From Flavobacteriaceae bacterium (GTDB lineage: Bacteria; Bacteroidota; Bacteroidia; Flavobacteriales; Flavobacteriaceae), in the NCBI GenBank assembly GCA_027080135.1, contig JALWUJ010000003.1, forward strand, positions 1 to 32,313: a DNA stretch of 32,313 bases, in the 5' to 3' direction. The position numbers and the translations under genes are program-made. The notes under the pieces are model-generated. The model was not told the origin of the DNA. It ran no database searches and saw only the letters and a list, made by a program, of their open reading frames with translations. Positions 24,044 to 30,441 of the stretch are shown in pieces (the first letter of the stretch is position 1; each line of letters starts with the position of its first letter).

Positions 24044-25378
24044 ATGAATGATGAAGTTCAAAACAAAGGAATACTGCCTACTGAAGACTGTGACCTGAAC
24101 ACTTCTTCCGTACTAGTTATATCTTACTATTGGCCACCAGCAGGAGGTCCAGGCGTACAACGTTGGTTAAAATTTGTAACTTACTTTAGAGAATTTGGAA
24201 TTAACCCCATTGTATTTATTCCTGAAAATCCACATTATCCGCTACAAGATAAATCCTTATTGAAGGAAGTCCCAAAGGAAATTAAAATTATTCGTTTTCC
24301 TATTAAAGAGCCTTATGGTTTTGCAAAAATGTTTTCAAAAAAGAAAACCAATAAGGTGAGTAGTGGGATAATTTCAAATAAAAAACAATCGATTATAGAA
24401 AATGCAATGCTTTGGGTAAGAGGTAATTTTTTTATTCCCGATGCTCGTGTTGGTTGGGTAAAACCTTCGGTTGATTTTCTTCAAAATTACATTGAAGAAA
24501 ATCATATAAAGCAAATAATTACTTCTGGACCACCACATAGTTTGCATTTAATAGGAATGCAATTAAAAGAAAAAACAGGTGTAAAATGGTTGGCAGATTT
24601 TCGGGATCCTTGGACGACAATTCATTATCATAAATTGCTTAGATTGAGTAAATCTTCAGAAAAAAAGCATAAAGATTTAGAACGGAAAGTATTAAATGAA
24701 GCCGACCAAATTGTGGTAACAAGCCAGAATACTAAGACGGAATTTTTAGAGATTACAAGTCAACCTATTGAGGTGATTACCAATGGATTTGAAGCTTTGG
24801 AAGAGAGTACAATTCAATTAGACAAAAAATTTACTTTGGTGCATATAGGCTCCTTATTAAGCAACCGAAACCCAGAAGTATTATGGAAAGTACTTTCTGA
24901 TGTTGCTCAAAGTAACACTGAATTTAAAAAGGATTTACAAATAAAATTAGTTGGGATTGTTAGCGAAGAAATTAAAGCAAAAATTAAAGAAAGTGGTTTA
25001 AATGAAAATCTTGAAATTGTTGGTTATGTTACGCATAAAGAGGCCATTCAGTTTCAACTAAAAGGGCAAGTATTACTTTTAATTGAGATGGATACTCCCG
25101 AAACAAAAGCTATTATTCCAGGAAAGTTATTTGAGTATTTAGCAGCAAAAAGACCGATTCTAGCAATAGGACCAGAGGGAAGTGATGTTACTTCAATTAT
25201 TTCAGAAACTCAATCGGGGAGCTATTTTTTATATTCAGAAGCAGTACAGTTAAAAAATCAACTTTTGTATTATTACAAAAAATATAAACAAGGTAGTTTG
25301 GTTTCAGAATCTAAAAATATTTCAAAATATAGTAGGAGAGAGTTGACCGAGAAAATGGCAATGTTGCTAAAAAAATAA
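24044..25378 (+). CDS. Glycosyltransferase family 4-like protein
   Basis: A 444-residue GT-B glycosyltransferase. The family start is VLVISYYWPPAGGPGVQRWLKFVTYFREFGINP, a glycine-rich donor-side loop near residue 35. Later comes TLVHIGSLLSNRNPEVL at the start of the C-terminal Rossmann domain and IPGKLFEYLAAKRPILAIGPEGSD, the nucleotide-sugar-binding helix. Substrate cannot be read from sequence. The first 22 residues (MNDEVQNKGILPTEDCDLNTSS) precede the usual first strand. They look like low-complexity intergenic sequence brought into frame, since the DNA before them reads as repeats of AATGTTGAA/AATGAATGATGAA. It follows the YfhO-family gene by 88 bases, so a glycan-assembly pair is plausible. 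Confidence 0.87.
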   Translation: MNDEVQNKGILPTEDCDLNTSSVLVISYYWPPAGGPGVQRWLKFVTYFREFGINPIVFIPENPHYPLQDKSLLKEVPKEIKIIRFPIKEPYGFAKMFSKKKTNKVSSGIISNKKQSIIENAMLWVRGNFFIPDARVGWVKPSVDFLQNYIEENHIKQIITSGPPHSLHLIGMQLKEKTGVKWLADFRDPWTTIHYHKLLRLSKSSEKKHKDLERKVLNEADQIVVTSQNTKTEFLEITSQPIEVITNGFEALEESTIQLDKKFTLVHIGSLLSNRNPEVLWKVLSDVAQSNTEFKKDLQIKLVGIVSEEIKAKIKESGLNENLEIVGYVTHKEAIQFQLKGQVLLLIEMDTPETKAIIPGKLFEYLAAKRPILAIGPEGSDVTSIISETQSGSYFLYSEAVQLKNQLLYYYKKYKQGSLVSESKNISKYSRRELTEKMAMLLKK

Positions 25379-25412
25379 AACCCTCAAAAAGTTTTCACTT
25401 TACAAGGGTTTT
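25377..25412. terminator. Bidirectional terminator between convergent genes
   Basis: Outer stem AAAACCCT (25377-25384) pairs with AGGGTTTT (25405-25412), and inner stem AAAGT (25388-25392) with ACTTT (25397-25401). A-rich on the left and T/A on the right, it overlaps the glycosyltransferase stop codon by two bases. Confidence 0.7.
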
Positions 25413-25431
25413 AAAAACTAACCAACCAAAA
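25409..25431 (-). repeat. 23-base repeat in the 3' UTR of the Ser/Arg-rich gene (copy 1)
   Basis: Identical over 23 bases to 26710-26732. It begins at the terminator stem and ends three bases short of the stop codon at 25434-25436. On the minus strand its core reads GGTTGGTTAGTTTTT. Confidence 0.75.
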
Positions 25432-26528: not shown

Positions 26529-26580
26529 AACGTTGAAATTTAGGTTAAACATTCTTTTTTGATTGTTCAATGTTATATTA

Positions 26581-26596
26581 CCAACGACCGTGCCAA
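26581..26596 (-). promoter_or_regulatory. Sigma-54-like promoter of the Ser/Arg-rich gene (weak -12)
   Basis: Minus strand from 26596 reads TTGGCACGGTCGTTGG. The -24 part TGGCACG fits the consensus and the spacing is right (ten bases between GG and the -12 pair), but the -12 pair is GG, not GC. It shares TGGCACGGT with the promoter at 26774-26790. The start would lie near 26570, about 42 bases before the ATG. Confidence 0.5.
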
Positions 26597-26668: not shown

Positions 26669-26713
26669 TTTTATAAAAAATCCGCTTTCAGGACAAACCT
26701 GAAAACGGATTTT
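26669..26713 (-). terminator. Strong intrinsic terminator of the candidate sRNA (and of uvrA)
   Basis: Sixteen-pair stem 26677-26692 with 26698-26713, loop five bases. Its one imperfect pair is a U-G wobble on the minus strand but a mismatch on the plus strand. It is followed on the minus strand by T6. This favours use by minus-strand transcripts. Confidence 0.85.
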
Positions 26714-26732
26714 AAAAACTAACCAACCAAAA
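26710..26732 (-). repeat. 23-base repeat next to the sRNA terminator (copy 2)
   Basis: Identical over 23 bases to 25409-25431, and placed the same way relative to a terminator stem. The similarity fades after four more bases. Confidence 0.75.
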
Positions 26733-26773
26733 CTTTAAATGAAAAGTAATTATTACTTTACGGAAATACAATT

Positions 26774-26790
26774 TGCAATCACCGTGCCAT
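26774..26790 (-). promoter_or_regulatory. Consensus sigma-54 promoter with no gene after it
   Basis: Minus strand from 26790 reads ATGGCACGGTGATTGCA. TGGCACG, ten bases between GG and GC, and TTGCA all match the sigma-54 consensus. Downstream there is only the candidate sRNA. Confidence 0.75.
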
Positions 26791-26817: not shown

Positions 26818-29604
26818 TTATTTAACAAAAAGCTTTTCAGAAAGATATTTTGCAGTGTATGATTCTTTATTTTTAATGACCTCTTCAGGAGTACCTTGTG
26901 CGATTATATTTCCTCCTTTTTCACCACCTTCAAGCCCAAGATCTATAATATGATCGGCACATTTAATTAAATCAATATTATGTTCAACCACAATTACCGT
27001 ATGCCCTTTTTCTAACAAAGCATAAAATGAAGCAAGGAGTTTATTAATATCGTGAAAATGAAGTCCCGTAGTAGGTTCATCAAAAATAAACAAGGCTTTG
27101 TCTTTGGTGTTTCCTTTTACTAAAAAGGATGCGAGTTTTATACGTTGTGCTTCACCACCAGAAAGGGTAGAGGAACTTTGCCCCAATTGTACATAACCCA
27201 AACCAACATCTTGTAGCGGTTGTAATTTGTTGGTAATTTTAGTTTCGTTGTGAGTTTTGAAAAAAGCAATGGCTTCATCTACCGTCATTGTTAAAATGTC
27301 GTGAATATTTTTATGAAAGAAATTTACCTCTAACACTTCCTTTTTAAATCGTCTTCCTTTACAGACATCGCATTCTAAATGAACATCTGCCATAAATTGC
27401 ATTTCGATAGTAACTTCTCCTTCACCCTTACAATTTTCACAACGACCTCCGTCAACATTAAACGAAAAATGTTTGGCTTTATAACCTCTAATGTCCGAAA
27501 GTTTTTGACGAGCAAACAAATTACGAATGTCATCGTAAGCTTTTATATAGGTCACAGGATTGGAGCGACTAGACCTTCCTATTGGATTCTGATCGATAAA
27601 TTCGACATTCTTAATGCTTTTAAAATTTCCTTCCAATTTTGAAAACTGACCTGGTTTTTCACCATAACCACCAATTTCTTTTAAAAGGGCAGGATATAGA
27701 ATTTTCTTTATCAAGGAGCTTTTTCCACTTCCTGAAACACCTGTAATTGCAGTAAAACATCCTAGTGGAAATTCTACGTCAATGTTTTTTAAATTATGTT
27801 GTCGAGCACCTTTAAGCTGAATTGAAATAGTAGATGTTCTTCTTTTTGAAGGGACCTCAATAGAAAGATCACCATTTAAATATTTAGCAGTTAATGATTC
27901 AGATTTTAAAATATCATTAAAAGTTCCTGTTGCCACTACTTCGCCACCAAAAGTTCCAGCTTCTGGTCCGATATCGATAATTTCATCTGCAGCTTTCATA
28001 ATGTCTTCATCGTGTTCTACTACAATTACTGTATTTCCTAAATCACGAAGTTTTTTAAGCACTTCAATTAAACGCTCGGTATCTTTTGGGTGAAGACCAA
28101 TACTAGGTTCGTCTAGAATATACATAGAACCCACCAAACTGCTTCCCAAAGAAGTTGCTAAGTTAATACGTTGCGATTCGCCTCCAGAAAGGGTGTTGGA
28201 TTTTCGGTTAATCGTTAAATAACTTAAACCTACATCTAAAAGGAATTGAATGCGATTATTAATTTCAATCAATAGTCGTTTTGCAATTTTCTGGTCGTAT
28301 TTGTCAAGTTCTAAGTGTTTGAAAAATTGGGCTACTTTTTCTAAAGGTAATTCTACCAATTCCTGAATGGATGTTCCATTAATTTTTACATAACTTGCTT
28401 CCTTTCTAAGTCTTTTTCCTTTACAAGTGCTGCATTTTGTTTTTCCACGATAGCGAGAAAGCATTACTCTGTTCTGTATTTTATAACTTTTTGAAGTTAA
28501 TTCTTCAAAAAACTCACTCAATCCTGTAAAGTATTTATTTCCGTCCCAAACCAATTGTTTTTGTTCTTCTGAAAGTTGAAACCAAGGTTTGTGTATAGGA
28601 AAATCAAATTTATATGCCGAATTTACTAATTGGTCACGATACCAACTCATACTCTCGCCACGCCAAGGAAAAATGGCATTTTCAAAAACCGAAAGAGCGG
28701 TGTTAGGAATTACCAATTCTTCATCAATTCCTATTACATCACCATATCCTTCACAAGTTTCACAGGCTCCATAGGGATTGTTAAAACTGAATAAATGTAC
28801 ATTGGGAGTTAAAAATGAAATTCCGTCTGCTTCAAAACGATTGTTGAATTCAGTAATAGTATTATCCGATAATTTTACAATATATATTTCTCCTTTTCCT
28901 TCAAAAAAAGCTATTTCAATGGCATCTGCTAAACGGTTATAAAAATCTTCATCTTTTTTTGTGATGATGCGATCTACTACTAAATCTATTTTCTTTGGAA
29001 GTGATTTTCCCTTTAATTCATCTAATCTAACAATTGCATTATCAATTTTAACTCGTGCATACCCTTGTTGTGATAAAGCTTTTAGTTTGTTTTCCATTGT
29101 TCGCCCTTCTTCTAATTGAATAGGAGCGAGGAGGAGGAGTTTTTCATTAATAGGGAAAGACTTGATAAGTTTTACTACGTCTGATGTGTTGTCTTTTTTT
29201 ACTACTCTTCCTGAAATTGGTGAAATTGTTTTACCAATTCGAGTATATAAAAGTTTTAGATAATCATAGATTTCAGTGGAAGTTCCAACAGTAGATCGAG
29301 GGTTGGTAGAATTAACTTTTTGTTCGATAGCAATGGCAGGAGAAATTCCTTTAATAGTATCCACTTTGGGTTTGTTTAGTCTTCCTAAAAACTGACGTGC
29401 ATAAGATGATAAGCTTTCTACGTATCTGCGTTGCCCTTCTGCGTATAGTGTGTCAAATGCCAAGCTTGATTTTCCGCTACCCGATAATCCTGTTATTACA
29501 ACCAATTTGTTTCGAGGAATTCTAACTGAAATATTTTTTAGATTATGTAATCTGGCTCCTTGAATTAGAATGTTATTTTTGGTATTTATAGTGTCAGAAT
29601 TCAA
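26818..29604 (-). CDS. uvrA: Excinuclease ABC subunit UvrA
   Basis: A 928-residue UvrA, close to the usual 940. Two ABC ATPase modules are present. The first has Walker A GLSGSGKSS (39-47) and the signature LSGGESQRINLA with Walker B MYILDEPSIGLHP. The second has Walker A GVSGSGKSS and LSGGEAQRIKLA with LFIFDEPTTGLHF. Zinc ligands are visible in CETCEGYG, CSTCKGKR and the CENCKGEG...CDVCKGRRF module that supports DNA binding. It finds bulky lesions and loads UvrB in nucleotide excision repair. uvrB and uvrC are not in the window. A -7 box (TATCTTTG, minus 29641-29634) gives a short leader. The nearest terminator downstream is the one at 26669-26713. Confidence 0.97.
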   Translation of the reverse strand: MNSDTINTKNNILIQGARLHNLKNISVRIPRNKLVVITGLSGSGKSSLAFDTLYAEGQRRYVESLSSYARQFLGRLNKPKVDTIKGISPAIAIEQKVNSTNPRSTVGTSTEIYDYLKLLYTRIGKTISPISGRVVKKDNTSDVVKLIKSFPINEKLLLLAPIQLEEGRTMENKLKALSQQGYARVKIDNAIVRLDELKGKSLPKKIDLVVDRIITKKDEDFYNRLADAIEIAFFEGKGEIYIVKLSDNTITEFNNRFEADGISFLTPNVHLFSFNNPYGACETCEGYGDVIGIDEELVIPNTALSVFENAIFPWRGESMSWYRDQLVNSAYKFDFPIHKPWFQLSEEQKQLVWDGNKYFTGLSEFFEELTSKSYKIQNRVMLSRYRGKTKCSTCKGKRLRKEASYVKINGTSIQELVELPLEKVAQFFKHLELDKYDQKIAKRLLIEINNRIQFLLDVGLSYLTINRKSNTLSGGESQRINLATSLGSSLVGSMYILDEPSIGLHPKDTERLIEVLKKLRDLGNTVIVVEHDEDIMKAADEIIDIGPEAGTFGGEVVATGTFNDILKSESLTAKYLNGDLSIEVPSKRRTSTISIQLKGARQHNLKNIDVEFPLGCFTAITGVSGSGKSSLIKKILYPALLKEIGGYGEKPGQFSKLEGNFKSIKNVEFIDQNPIGRSSRSNPVTYIKAYDDIRNLFARQKLSDIRGYKAKHFSFNVDGGRCENCKGEGEVTIEMQFMADVHLECDVCKGRRFKKEVLEVNFFHKNIHDILTMTVDEAIAFFKTHNETKITNKLQPLQDVGLGYVQLGQSSSTLSGGEAQRIKLASFLVKGNTKDKALFIFDEPTTGLHFHDINKLLASFYALLEKGHTVIVVEHNIDLIKCADHIIDLGLEGGEKGGNIIAQGTPEEVIKNKESYTAKYLSEKLFVK

Positions 29605-29740: not shown

Positions 29741-29856
29741 CCCACATATTAACAAATAAATTTTATTGCCTATAGCATAATACTACTTTTTTAAATAAAT
29801 AATATTAACTAAACAACCCCCATAAATATAGTTGTTTGATATTTAAAAGTACTGTT

Positions 29857-30441
29857 ATGAAAAAAAACGAATCTACAGATGCACAATTAGTTGGTGCATA
29901 TATAAAAGGCGATGAAAGTGCAATAAGCGAATTAATCACTAGGCACAAGCAAAAAATATATAGCTTTATCTATTCTAAGGTTTACGATAGAGATGTTACC
30001 GAAGATATTTTTCAGGATACTTTTATTAAAGTAATTAACACTTTAAAAAGAGGAGCATATAACGAAGAAGGAAAATTTATTCCTTGGGTAATGAGAATAT
30101 CTCATAATTTGGTGATTGATCACTTTAGAAAAAACAGTAGAATGCCAAAATTTGAAAATAATTCGGATTTTAATATATTTTCTGTTCTTTGTGATGGATC
30201 ATTAAATGCAGAAAAGAAAATGATTAAAGGACAGGTAGAGAACGACTTAAGAAGGTTGGTTCAGGAATTGCCCGAAGATCAGAAAGAAGTATTGTTAATG
30301 CGTGTTTACAAAGAAATGAGCTTTAAAGATATTAGTGAACAAACAGGAGTTAGTATTAATACTGCTTTGGGAAGAATGAGATATGCACTTATAAATTTAC
30401 GCAAAGTAATTGATAAACATAATATTGTGTTAACTAATTAA
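29857..30441 (+). CDS. ECF-type RNA polymerase sigma-70 family sigma factor
   Basis: A 194-residue group 4 sigma factor. I start at the ATG at 29857 (MKKNESTDAQLV), since the upstream in-frame ATG (29836) adds only seven residues and overlaps the hairpin. Region 2 (KIYSFIYSKVYDRDVTEDIFQDTFIKVI) recognises the -10 and core polymerase. The linker is short. Region 4 (LVQELPEDQKEVLLMRVYKEMSFKDISEQTGVSINTALGRMRYALINLRK) carries the helix-turn-helix for the -35 element. Most Bacteroidota ECF factors are paired with a FecR-like anti-sigma and a TonB receptor, and none is present here. A 50-residue small protein follows 59 bases later. The signal and regulon are unknown. Confidence 0.93.
   Translation: MKKNESTDAQLVGAYIKGDESAISELITRHKQKIYSFIYSKVYDRDVTEDIFQDTFIKVINTLKRGAYNEEGKFIPWVMRISHNLVIDHFRKNSRMPKFENNSDFNIFSVLCDGSLNAEKKMIKGQVENDLRRLVQELPEDQKEVLLMRVYKEMSFKDISEQTGVSINTALGRMRYALINLRKVIDKHNIVLTN

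Follow-up and report, generated by a model that had tools for sequence, protein, structure and literature searches.

The minus strand of the window, by which we mean the whole 32,313-nucleotide stretch of Flavobacteriaceae DNA analysed here, very probably carries a real, conserved and RpoN-driven small RNA (sRNA) gene. On the evidence of sequence, its promoter, the layout of its transcript, its conservation and the link between its 14-nt 3' element and sigma-54 are established, and the sRNA belongs to a Flavobacteriaceae-wide set that is marked by this element. A function of the predicted RNA by base pairing is plausible.

Promoter, transcript and terminator

The sigma-54 promoter of the sRNA, TGGCACGGTGATTGCAA, is located at 26773..26789 on the minus strand and was assigned from its sequence and its conservation in the genus. 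It consists of TGGCACG (26789-26783), four further bases and TTGCA (26778-26774), and the stretch TGGCACGGTGATTGCA at 26789-26774 is a perfect -24/-12 site that follows the pattern TGGCAC-N5-TTGC of sigma-54-dependent transcripts. The consensus RpoN promoter proposed in an earlier note on this DNA is therefore real as a site; the "ten-base spacing" given there is the distance from GG to GC, and the -24/-12 spacing itself is canonical. In the 32-kb window TGGCACGNNNNTTGCW occurred without mismatch only once, at this promoter, and with at most one mismatch 4 times, compared to 0.09 matches expected from shuffles. The own genome (2.42 Mb of sequence from an assembly that is 81% complete) contained TGGCACGNNNNTTGSWA without mismatch twice, both times at this locus (26789-26773 and 26595-26579). 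With at most one mismatch 8 sites were counted versus 6 for the reversed control; thus, one-mismatch sites in this genome are no more frequent than background.

The second of the two exact sites, TGGCACGGTCGTTGGTA (26579..26595, minus strand, found by sequence scan), lies 194 nt downstream of the sRNA promoter and upstream of the gene P0001. Consequently, the sRNA promoter is not an "orphan", as had been supposed, but one of a tandem pair, and sigma-54 transcripts with the same 3' element occur throughout the family. RpoN is encoded in this genome (G000:C17, E 1.2e-53), and its DNA-binding domain was detected in 57 of 59 genomes including this one. No RpoN was found in G012 and G017, which both possess the sRNA and whose assemblies are 83% and 81% complete.

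With the C of TTGC set as -12, transcription is predicted to start at 26763 and to yield a non-coding sRNA of about 89 nt (26675..26763, minus strand, assigned from sequence and genus conservation) that extends to the end of a T6 tract. Reading of the sequence revealed no ATG between the predicted start and the terminator stem, in agreement with the RNA of about 90 nt without an ATG-initiated frame that the earlier note had described. The intrinsic terminator at 26677..26713 (minus strand, supported by folding and covariation) was likewise predicted as noted before, with 16 pairs and a final T6: 26713-26698 pairs with 26692-26677, and the first four residues of the T tract (26680-26675) are part of the stem. 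This is probably the reason why the hairpin was missing from the results of a separate terminator scan. Folding of 26672-26763 gave an energy of -27.3 kcal/mol (z = -5.8), which was equalled by none of 200 shuffles. By sequence alone, the locus thus has the layout of a short, non-coding, independent transcript with its own terminator. Its U/G-rich middle, regarded earlier as likely single-stranded, was weakly paired or unpaired in the folds depending on the member of the family. Two parts of the predicted RNA deserve attention, namely UUUUCAU at 26739..26745 (minus strand), the complement of AUGAAAA, which the genus alignment places upstream of the 3' element, and the element TTGGTTGGTTAGTT itself at 26717..26730 (minus strand), a candidate seed or protein site by its family-wide occurrence.

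A search of the window against Rfam revealed no family at gathering score, and weak sub-threshold matches were rejected as chance. Among 11 related loci Rfam recognized just a tRNA and a DUF805b RNA, neither of them at the sRNA. The DUF805b match at L082:1332-1366 (minus strand; 44.8 bits, cut-off 35.6) is flanked by a sigma-54-like site on one side and, on the other, by the beginning of a 230-aa gene that follows uvrA. A small open reading frame (ORF) on the plus strand (MKSNYYFTEIQFAITVP) was discarded as a candidate; its frame is lost in the relatives examined.

The sRNA sits in the 3' untranslated region (3'UTR) of uvrA (26818..29604, minus strand). No terminator was seen by reading between the uvrA stop (26818) and the sRNA promoter, so that the uvrA mRNA would end at the sRNA hairpin. 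On the other side P0001 (25434..26528, minus strand), which follows the second sigma-54 promoter, encodes a predicted exported protein of 364 aa without a Pfam or NCBIfam match. Its 3'UTR contains an identical copy of the 14-nt element (25416..25429, minus strand) directly before a terminator (AAAACCCT...AGGGTTTT, 25377..25412, minus strand, by reading) whose sequence is unlike that of the sRNA terminator. A third exact copy in the own genome, TTGGTTGGTTAGTTAGTT (L031:1357-1370, on G000:C112), also directly precedes a terminator and stands behind a 107-aa gene that is rhodanese-like by reading. Divergent from uvrA, the window encodes at 29836-30441 (plus strand) an ECF-like protein with sigma-70 region 2 and region 4 domains (Pfam).

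Conservation in the genus and the position behind uvrA

A search with a 251-bp region gave matches in 18 of 59 genomes including the own one, 15 of them belonging to the genus. Of the 19 genus genomes, 15 possess the sRNA locus with promoter, U/G block and hairpin kept as a unit, which answers the question of joint conservation raised in the earlier note. The genus alignment was built from 15 of 24 loci (L001-L024), the other nine being matches in another context. The alignment shows that the hairpin, GTTTTGGTTGGTTAGTTTTTAAAATCCG, a TTTCAT-like block and the promoter pattern TGG..A.....TTG, with CGG in one sequence, persist; the 5' part and the loop of the sRNA drift. TGG[C/A]A...TTG was retained in 14 of the 15, L008 being the sequence with CGG. 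TTTCAT itself occurs in 10 sequences, TCTCAT in one more and TTTTA[GT] in four. An altered U/G block, reading GAGTTGGTTTG, GAGTTGATTTG or TAGTTGATTTG, was observed in four genomes (L011, L013, L014 and L016).

The terminator stem covaries in the genus. Changes on both sides were counted in 18 cells compared to 6.6 in shuffles, and the covariation score was 0.275 compared to 0.142; neither value was matched by any of 500 shuffles, and every slid version of the stem scored lower. The number of pairs with a two-sided change was 6 versus 4.2 in shuffles, a value reached by 23 of 500.

In 12 of the 15 genus sequences a second sigma-54 site follows 177-227 nt further on and precedes a P0001-like gene, as in the window. 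The 3'UTR of this gene carries the element or its variant GGTTAGTTAG in 9 of the 12. The P0001-like 3'UTRs without element belong to L013, L014 and L016, in which the block of the sRNA is also altered.

The gene upstream of the sRNA is uvrA in some genus genomes and encodes a protein with a T9SS-type C-terminus (by reading) in others. Thus, the sRNA is not merely the tail of uvrA. This bears on the proposal that the hairpin does no more than end the uvrA mRNA and pervasive transcripts, with a promoter that matches by chance or is silent. The proposal draws on the stretch between uvrA and hairpin, in which no other terminator was seen, and we consider it very improbable: the -24/-12 site is perfect and conserved, promoter and sRNA persist behind the T9SS-type gene, and sigma-54 sites are associated with the element far above controls (see below). 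By reading, stretches between uvrA and the sRNA in L013 and L016 (about 1430-1540) resemble the end of a T9SS-type sorting domain. Similar stretches close whole upstream genes in L006 and L007, and the UvrA protein of the window ends in ..EKLFVK.

The slot that separates uvrA from the P0001-like gene varies in content: in some other genera it is occupied by a related sigma-54 protein gene, and the sRNA stands where relatives have a related mRNA. In G142 (L068) and G030 (L079) a sigma-54 gene with the element, 214 aa long in the former and 200 aa in the latter, comes after uvrA and is followed by a sigma-54 P0001-like gene which also bears the element (L096 in G142, L079 in G030). The slot of Gilvibacter sediminis (L174) contains two genes, for proteins of 195 and 239 aa, and a -24/-12 site precedes each of them; the 239-aa gene has no element, and the P0001-like gene has one. 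In single comparisons (E 1e-10 and 9e-8) the slot proteins proved to be distant relatives of the P0001-like ones. The window and G068 (L062) have the ORF-less sRNA in this place, followed by a P0001-like gene. The order uvrA, sRNA and next sigma-54 site was also found in L113 (G146) and L227 (G184), where the next gene lies beyond the locus, and in L012 (G006) uvrA and sRNA are followed by a different gene. ORF loss and ORF gain would both explain these slot contents.

The first of these routes leads to a reading of the sRNA as a remnant: a sigma-54 protein gene would have lost its ORF, leaving promoter, element and terminator with little or no function in trans. The related element-bearing genes in the slots of G142 and G030, the two genes of Gilvibacter and the ORF-less sRNA in the same slot of the window and G068 are in line with such an origin. 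A relic would hardly account for the conserved block and the covarying hairpin across the genus, nor for a second type of sRNA that is conserved with the same layout in 7 genera, and the 239-aa gene of Gilvibacter is devoid of the element. We therefore regard a mere relic as improbable. Strings resembling sigma-54 sites occur within the slot gene of L068, L079, L109 and L169, some 80-115 nt ahead of the element. They were not read as promoters since they coincide with Trp-His-Asp/Glu-x-Trp codons; they may be a chance coding match or an overlapping promoter.

The 3' element across the Flavobacteriaceae

The 14-mer UUGGUUGGUUAGUU was found as DNA in 97 of 149 family genomes, with one genome per genus; the reversed element as a control never occurred more than once per strand. 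Among the matches listed, 110 loci (30 returned by the search and 80 fetched) with 115 distinct elements were surveyed. A strict terminator followed within 85 nt after 60 of the 115 elements, compared to 5 of 376 offset positions and 12 of 115 antisense controls.

Sigma-54 sites were classified for 104 of the 115 elements; the upstream ORF runs off the locus at eight others, and three lie inside an ORF. As the sequences are related, the following counts are not independent. Among the 57 elements that have no ORF end in the 40 nt upstream, 20 had such a site, divided into 18 of 35 elements without an ORF end within 160 nt and 2 of 22 with an ORF end at 40-160 nt. The latter two (L062 and L113) are both located behind uvrA. 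At L078 the site is so close that the predicted RNA would start about at the element. Element-bearing 3'UTRs of genes had a sigma-54 site in 37 of 47 cases. Nine control patterns, comprising six wrong spacings, the reversed pattern and two scrambles, gave 0 or 1. The sites on the mRNA side belonged to 32 of 33 P0001-like genes, 4 of 5 members of a second family and 1 Hsp20-like gene, and to none of 8 others. Outside the P0001-like genes just 5 of 14 element-bearing 3'UTRs had one. With 32 of the 37 sites in P0001-like genes, the sigma-54 association of the mRNAs is mainly that of one protein family.

The proteins encoded upstream of the element (n = 79; names other than P0001 and UvrA by reading) comprised 35 P0001-like proteins, 13 ClpB, 6 members of one 326-aa family, 5 members of a predicted lipoprotein family, 3 UvrA and 3 examples of a 171-aa membrane protein; the remainder fell into small groups, Spy-like and Hsp20-like sequences among them. 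ClpB, as read in these 13 cases, is also listed in the sigma-54 regulon of Flavobacterium psychrophilum in the text of PMC9723704.

A second type of sigma-54 sRNA with the same layout was aligned from 7 genera (L063, L067, L073, L075, L090, L135 and L152). It has the core GTTTATTGAGTGGTTACTTTAAACTT...TTCATATTTTTGGTTGGTTAGTTA and a short terminator. Further possible sRNAs, in which TTTTCATAATTTAAAGTTT(T)GGTTGGTTA precedes a terminator, were noticed in L326 (about 1700-1800) and L325 (about 1730-1830, both in minus-strand coordinates). No sigma-54 site was found upstream of this variant in either locus.

Literature searches with the motif letters and with sigma-54, sRNA and flavobacteria as terms, which covered texts other than subscription papers, yielded no description of this element. 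The matches listed for the motif letters in paper texts included no flavobacterial paper.

Leader pairing and comparison with known systems

The element is complementary to AACUAACCAACCAA, and at 5 of the 115 elements the opposite strand carries the leader of an ORF of 300-597 aa. Pairing with A/C-rich leaders (CCAACCAA) had been suggested earlier for the middle of the sRNA. We compared the occurrence of AACCAACC-N(2-20)-ATGAA in the 149 genomes with that of a single scramble, ACACAACC. A place was counted as a true leader when its ATG opened at least 70 codons and the motif was outside any ORF of 100 codons. In G100, G184 and G068, for which the comparison is complete and includes all listed places, true leaders made up 12 of 34 places for AACCAACC versus 1 of 6 for the scramble; some of the 12 look like paralogues (L217, L219 and L225). 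All fetched places gave 13 of 40 for the test pattern versus 2 of 40 for the scramble, whose 40 places are not strictly the first 40 (two listed places, in G156 and in G035, the latter also holding AACCAACC, and one overlapping duplicate were skipped).

In 17 of 20 sigma-54 sRNAs of the family CAT occurs in the 20 nt that precede the element, compared to 4.4 expected from shuffled letters, these being related and hence not independent sequences. For the other elements the numbers were 36 of 95 and 21.8, respectively.

The own genome contains 10 places with the leader pattern. One is the sRNA itself, and one, L292, is a clean leader (AACCAACCAAAATG) that belongs to a large predicted exported protein. 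The place at L286 overlaps the end of the preceding gene, and the remaining ones lie inside ORFs. Calculated duplex energies did not separate leaders from coding matches in this genome. The L292 leader could be compared in 13 of 16 genus leaders (G001, G006 and G041 were left out). AACCAACC is kept in five genomes (G000, G012, G013, G010 and G015) and missing in 8 of the 13, including G002, G007 and G008, whose sRNAs carry the element. A leader antisense to the full length of the element was rejected: CTAACCAACCAA-N(0-14)-ATGAA matched in six of the 19 genus genomes, each time at the sRNA locus itself. Exported proteins, assigned by a rule of our own, were not enriched among the leaders (7 of 13 versus 62 of 87 in a biased background). 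A survey of hexamers and octamers in 157 leaders was set aside as too small, and its 5 cases of AACCAACC had been preselected by the element. The suggested leader pairing thus receives modest support from the 12 leaders against 1, weakened by the absence of AACCAACC from 8 of 13 L292 leaders, by the matches of the full complement at the sRNA locus alone and by the lack of enrichment of exported proteins.

The RpoN promoter in the uvrA 3'UTR would drive the non-coding sRNA of roughly 89 nt, which may accumulate under RpoN-activating conditions. Its weakly structured tail would base-pair with AACCAACC-N(2-20)-AUGAA leaders, and UUUUCAU upstream of the element may aid this pairing. The start codon would be covered and translation blocked, in a mode like that of the sigmaE sRNAs in enterobacteria and of FopS in Bacteroides. 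Transcription, pairing, repression and the physiological signal are what we infer here. We give about even chances to a sigma-54 sRNA in the uvrA 3'UTR that pairs with leaders and blocks their translation during stress, because exported proteins were not enriched, one scramble was used and no leader of the genus is complementary to the full element.

The element might instead be the site of an RNA-binding protein, an Hfq-like or RRM-type hub, directly before the terminator. It would then stabilize mRNAs, and the sRNA would act as carrier or decoy without pairing specifically to leaders. The position directly before terminators fits such a site, as do the four-nucleotide periodicity UUGG/UUGG/UUAG/UUAG and the exchange of GGUU and AGUU between sRNA and 3'UTR copies. 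Moreover, the mRNAs that bear the element differ widely, several of them having no sigma-54 site at their locus (by reading, ClpB-, Spy-, YHS- and rhodanese-like), and the text of PMC11697453 describes binding of FopS sRNAs by RbpB in Bacteroides. A protein site would leave the leader enrichment and the CAT upstream of the element in sigma-54 sRNAs unexplained, and we rate it as possible but rather unlikely.

An extension of the pairing model to the whole regulon can be put forward tentatively, although we hold it rather unlikely; that the sigma-54 mRNAs belong mostly to a single protein family lowers its odds. The element would be a 3' seed in which sigma-54-dependent coding and non-coding transcripts end, and stress mRNAs would be precursors of, or share targets with, sRNAs that silence mRNAs with AACCAACC leaders. 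In some lineages the mRNA would have been reduced to promoter and 3' module, the sRNA gene being born by loss of the ORF.

The literature searches brought up few regulatory RNAs from non-gut Bacteroidota. If a single 14-nt element links sigma-54 mRNAs with sRNAs in most sampled family genomes, it would anchor a search for the RNA arm of their stress response, for the targets of this arm and for the RNA-binding protein involved. The locus described here is a conserved RpoN-type sRNA gene with a 3' element for which no description was found.

That sRNAs can arise from mRNA 3' regions is familiar from MicL, which has its own stress promoter, and from CpxQ, which is processed from a stress mRNA. 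The 3'UTR location is shared with the sRNA of the window, and the comparison is one of analogy without a claim of homology. Within the same family, the sigma-54 (SM4) regulon of F. psychrophilum was mapped by Guerin et al. 2021 (PMC9723704). According to its text this regulon includes GroESL, DnaK, Lon, ClpB, Skp, HtpG, gliding genes and the putative RNA Rfp36, with protein quality control, envelope stress, gliding and exported proteins as themes (PMC9723704). Such a content fits the stress reading of the sRNA. Rfp36, which occurs once in the main text of that paper (Table 2), resembles our sRNA as a putative regulatory RNA under a -24/-12 promoter in the same family; unlike the set described here, it is given no shared 3' element in that text (PMC9723704). 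With Rfp36 already listed under a sigma-54 promoter (PMC9723704), the supposition that an sRNA of this build would be new for the group is only partly right.

FopS and GibS of Bacteroides thetaiotaomicron are described in the text of PMC11697453 as multicopy sRNAs, one of them derived from a 3'UTR, that repress at the translation start. FopS has sigma-ABfr promoters, a 5' seed (R1') and PUL targets (PMC11697453); the sRNA of the window differs in its -24/-12 promoter and in a candidate seed at the 3' side, the element just before the terminator. RybB and MicA, the sigmaE sRNAs of Salmonella, are stress sRNAs under an alternative sigma factor that act on mRNAs of envelope proteins, as the text of PMC1804206 relates. 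They differ in sigma factor and phylum, and the targets of the sRNA described here are predictions. By analogy, FopS and the sigmaE sRNAs would be its closest counterparts in mode of action.
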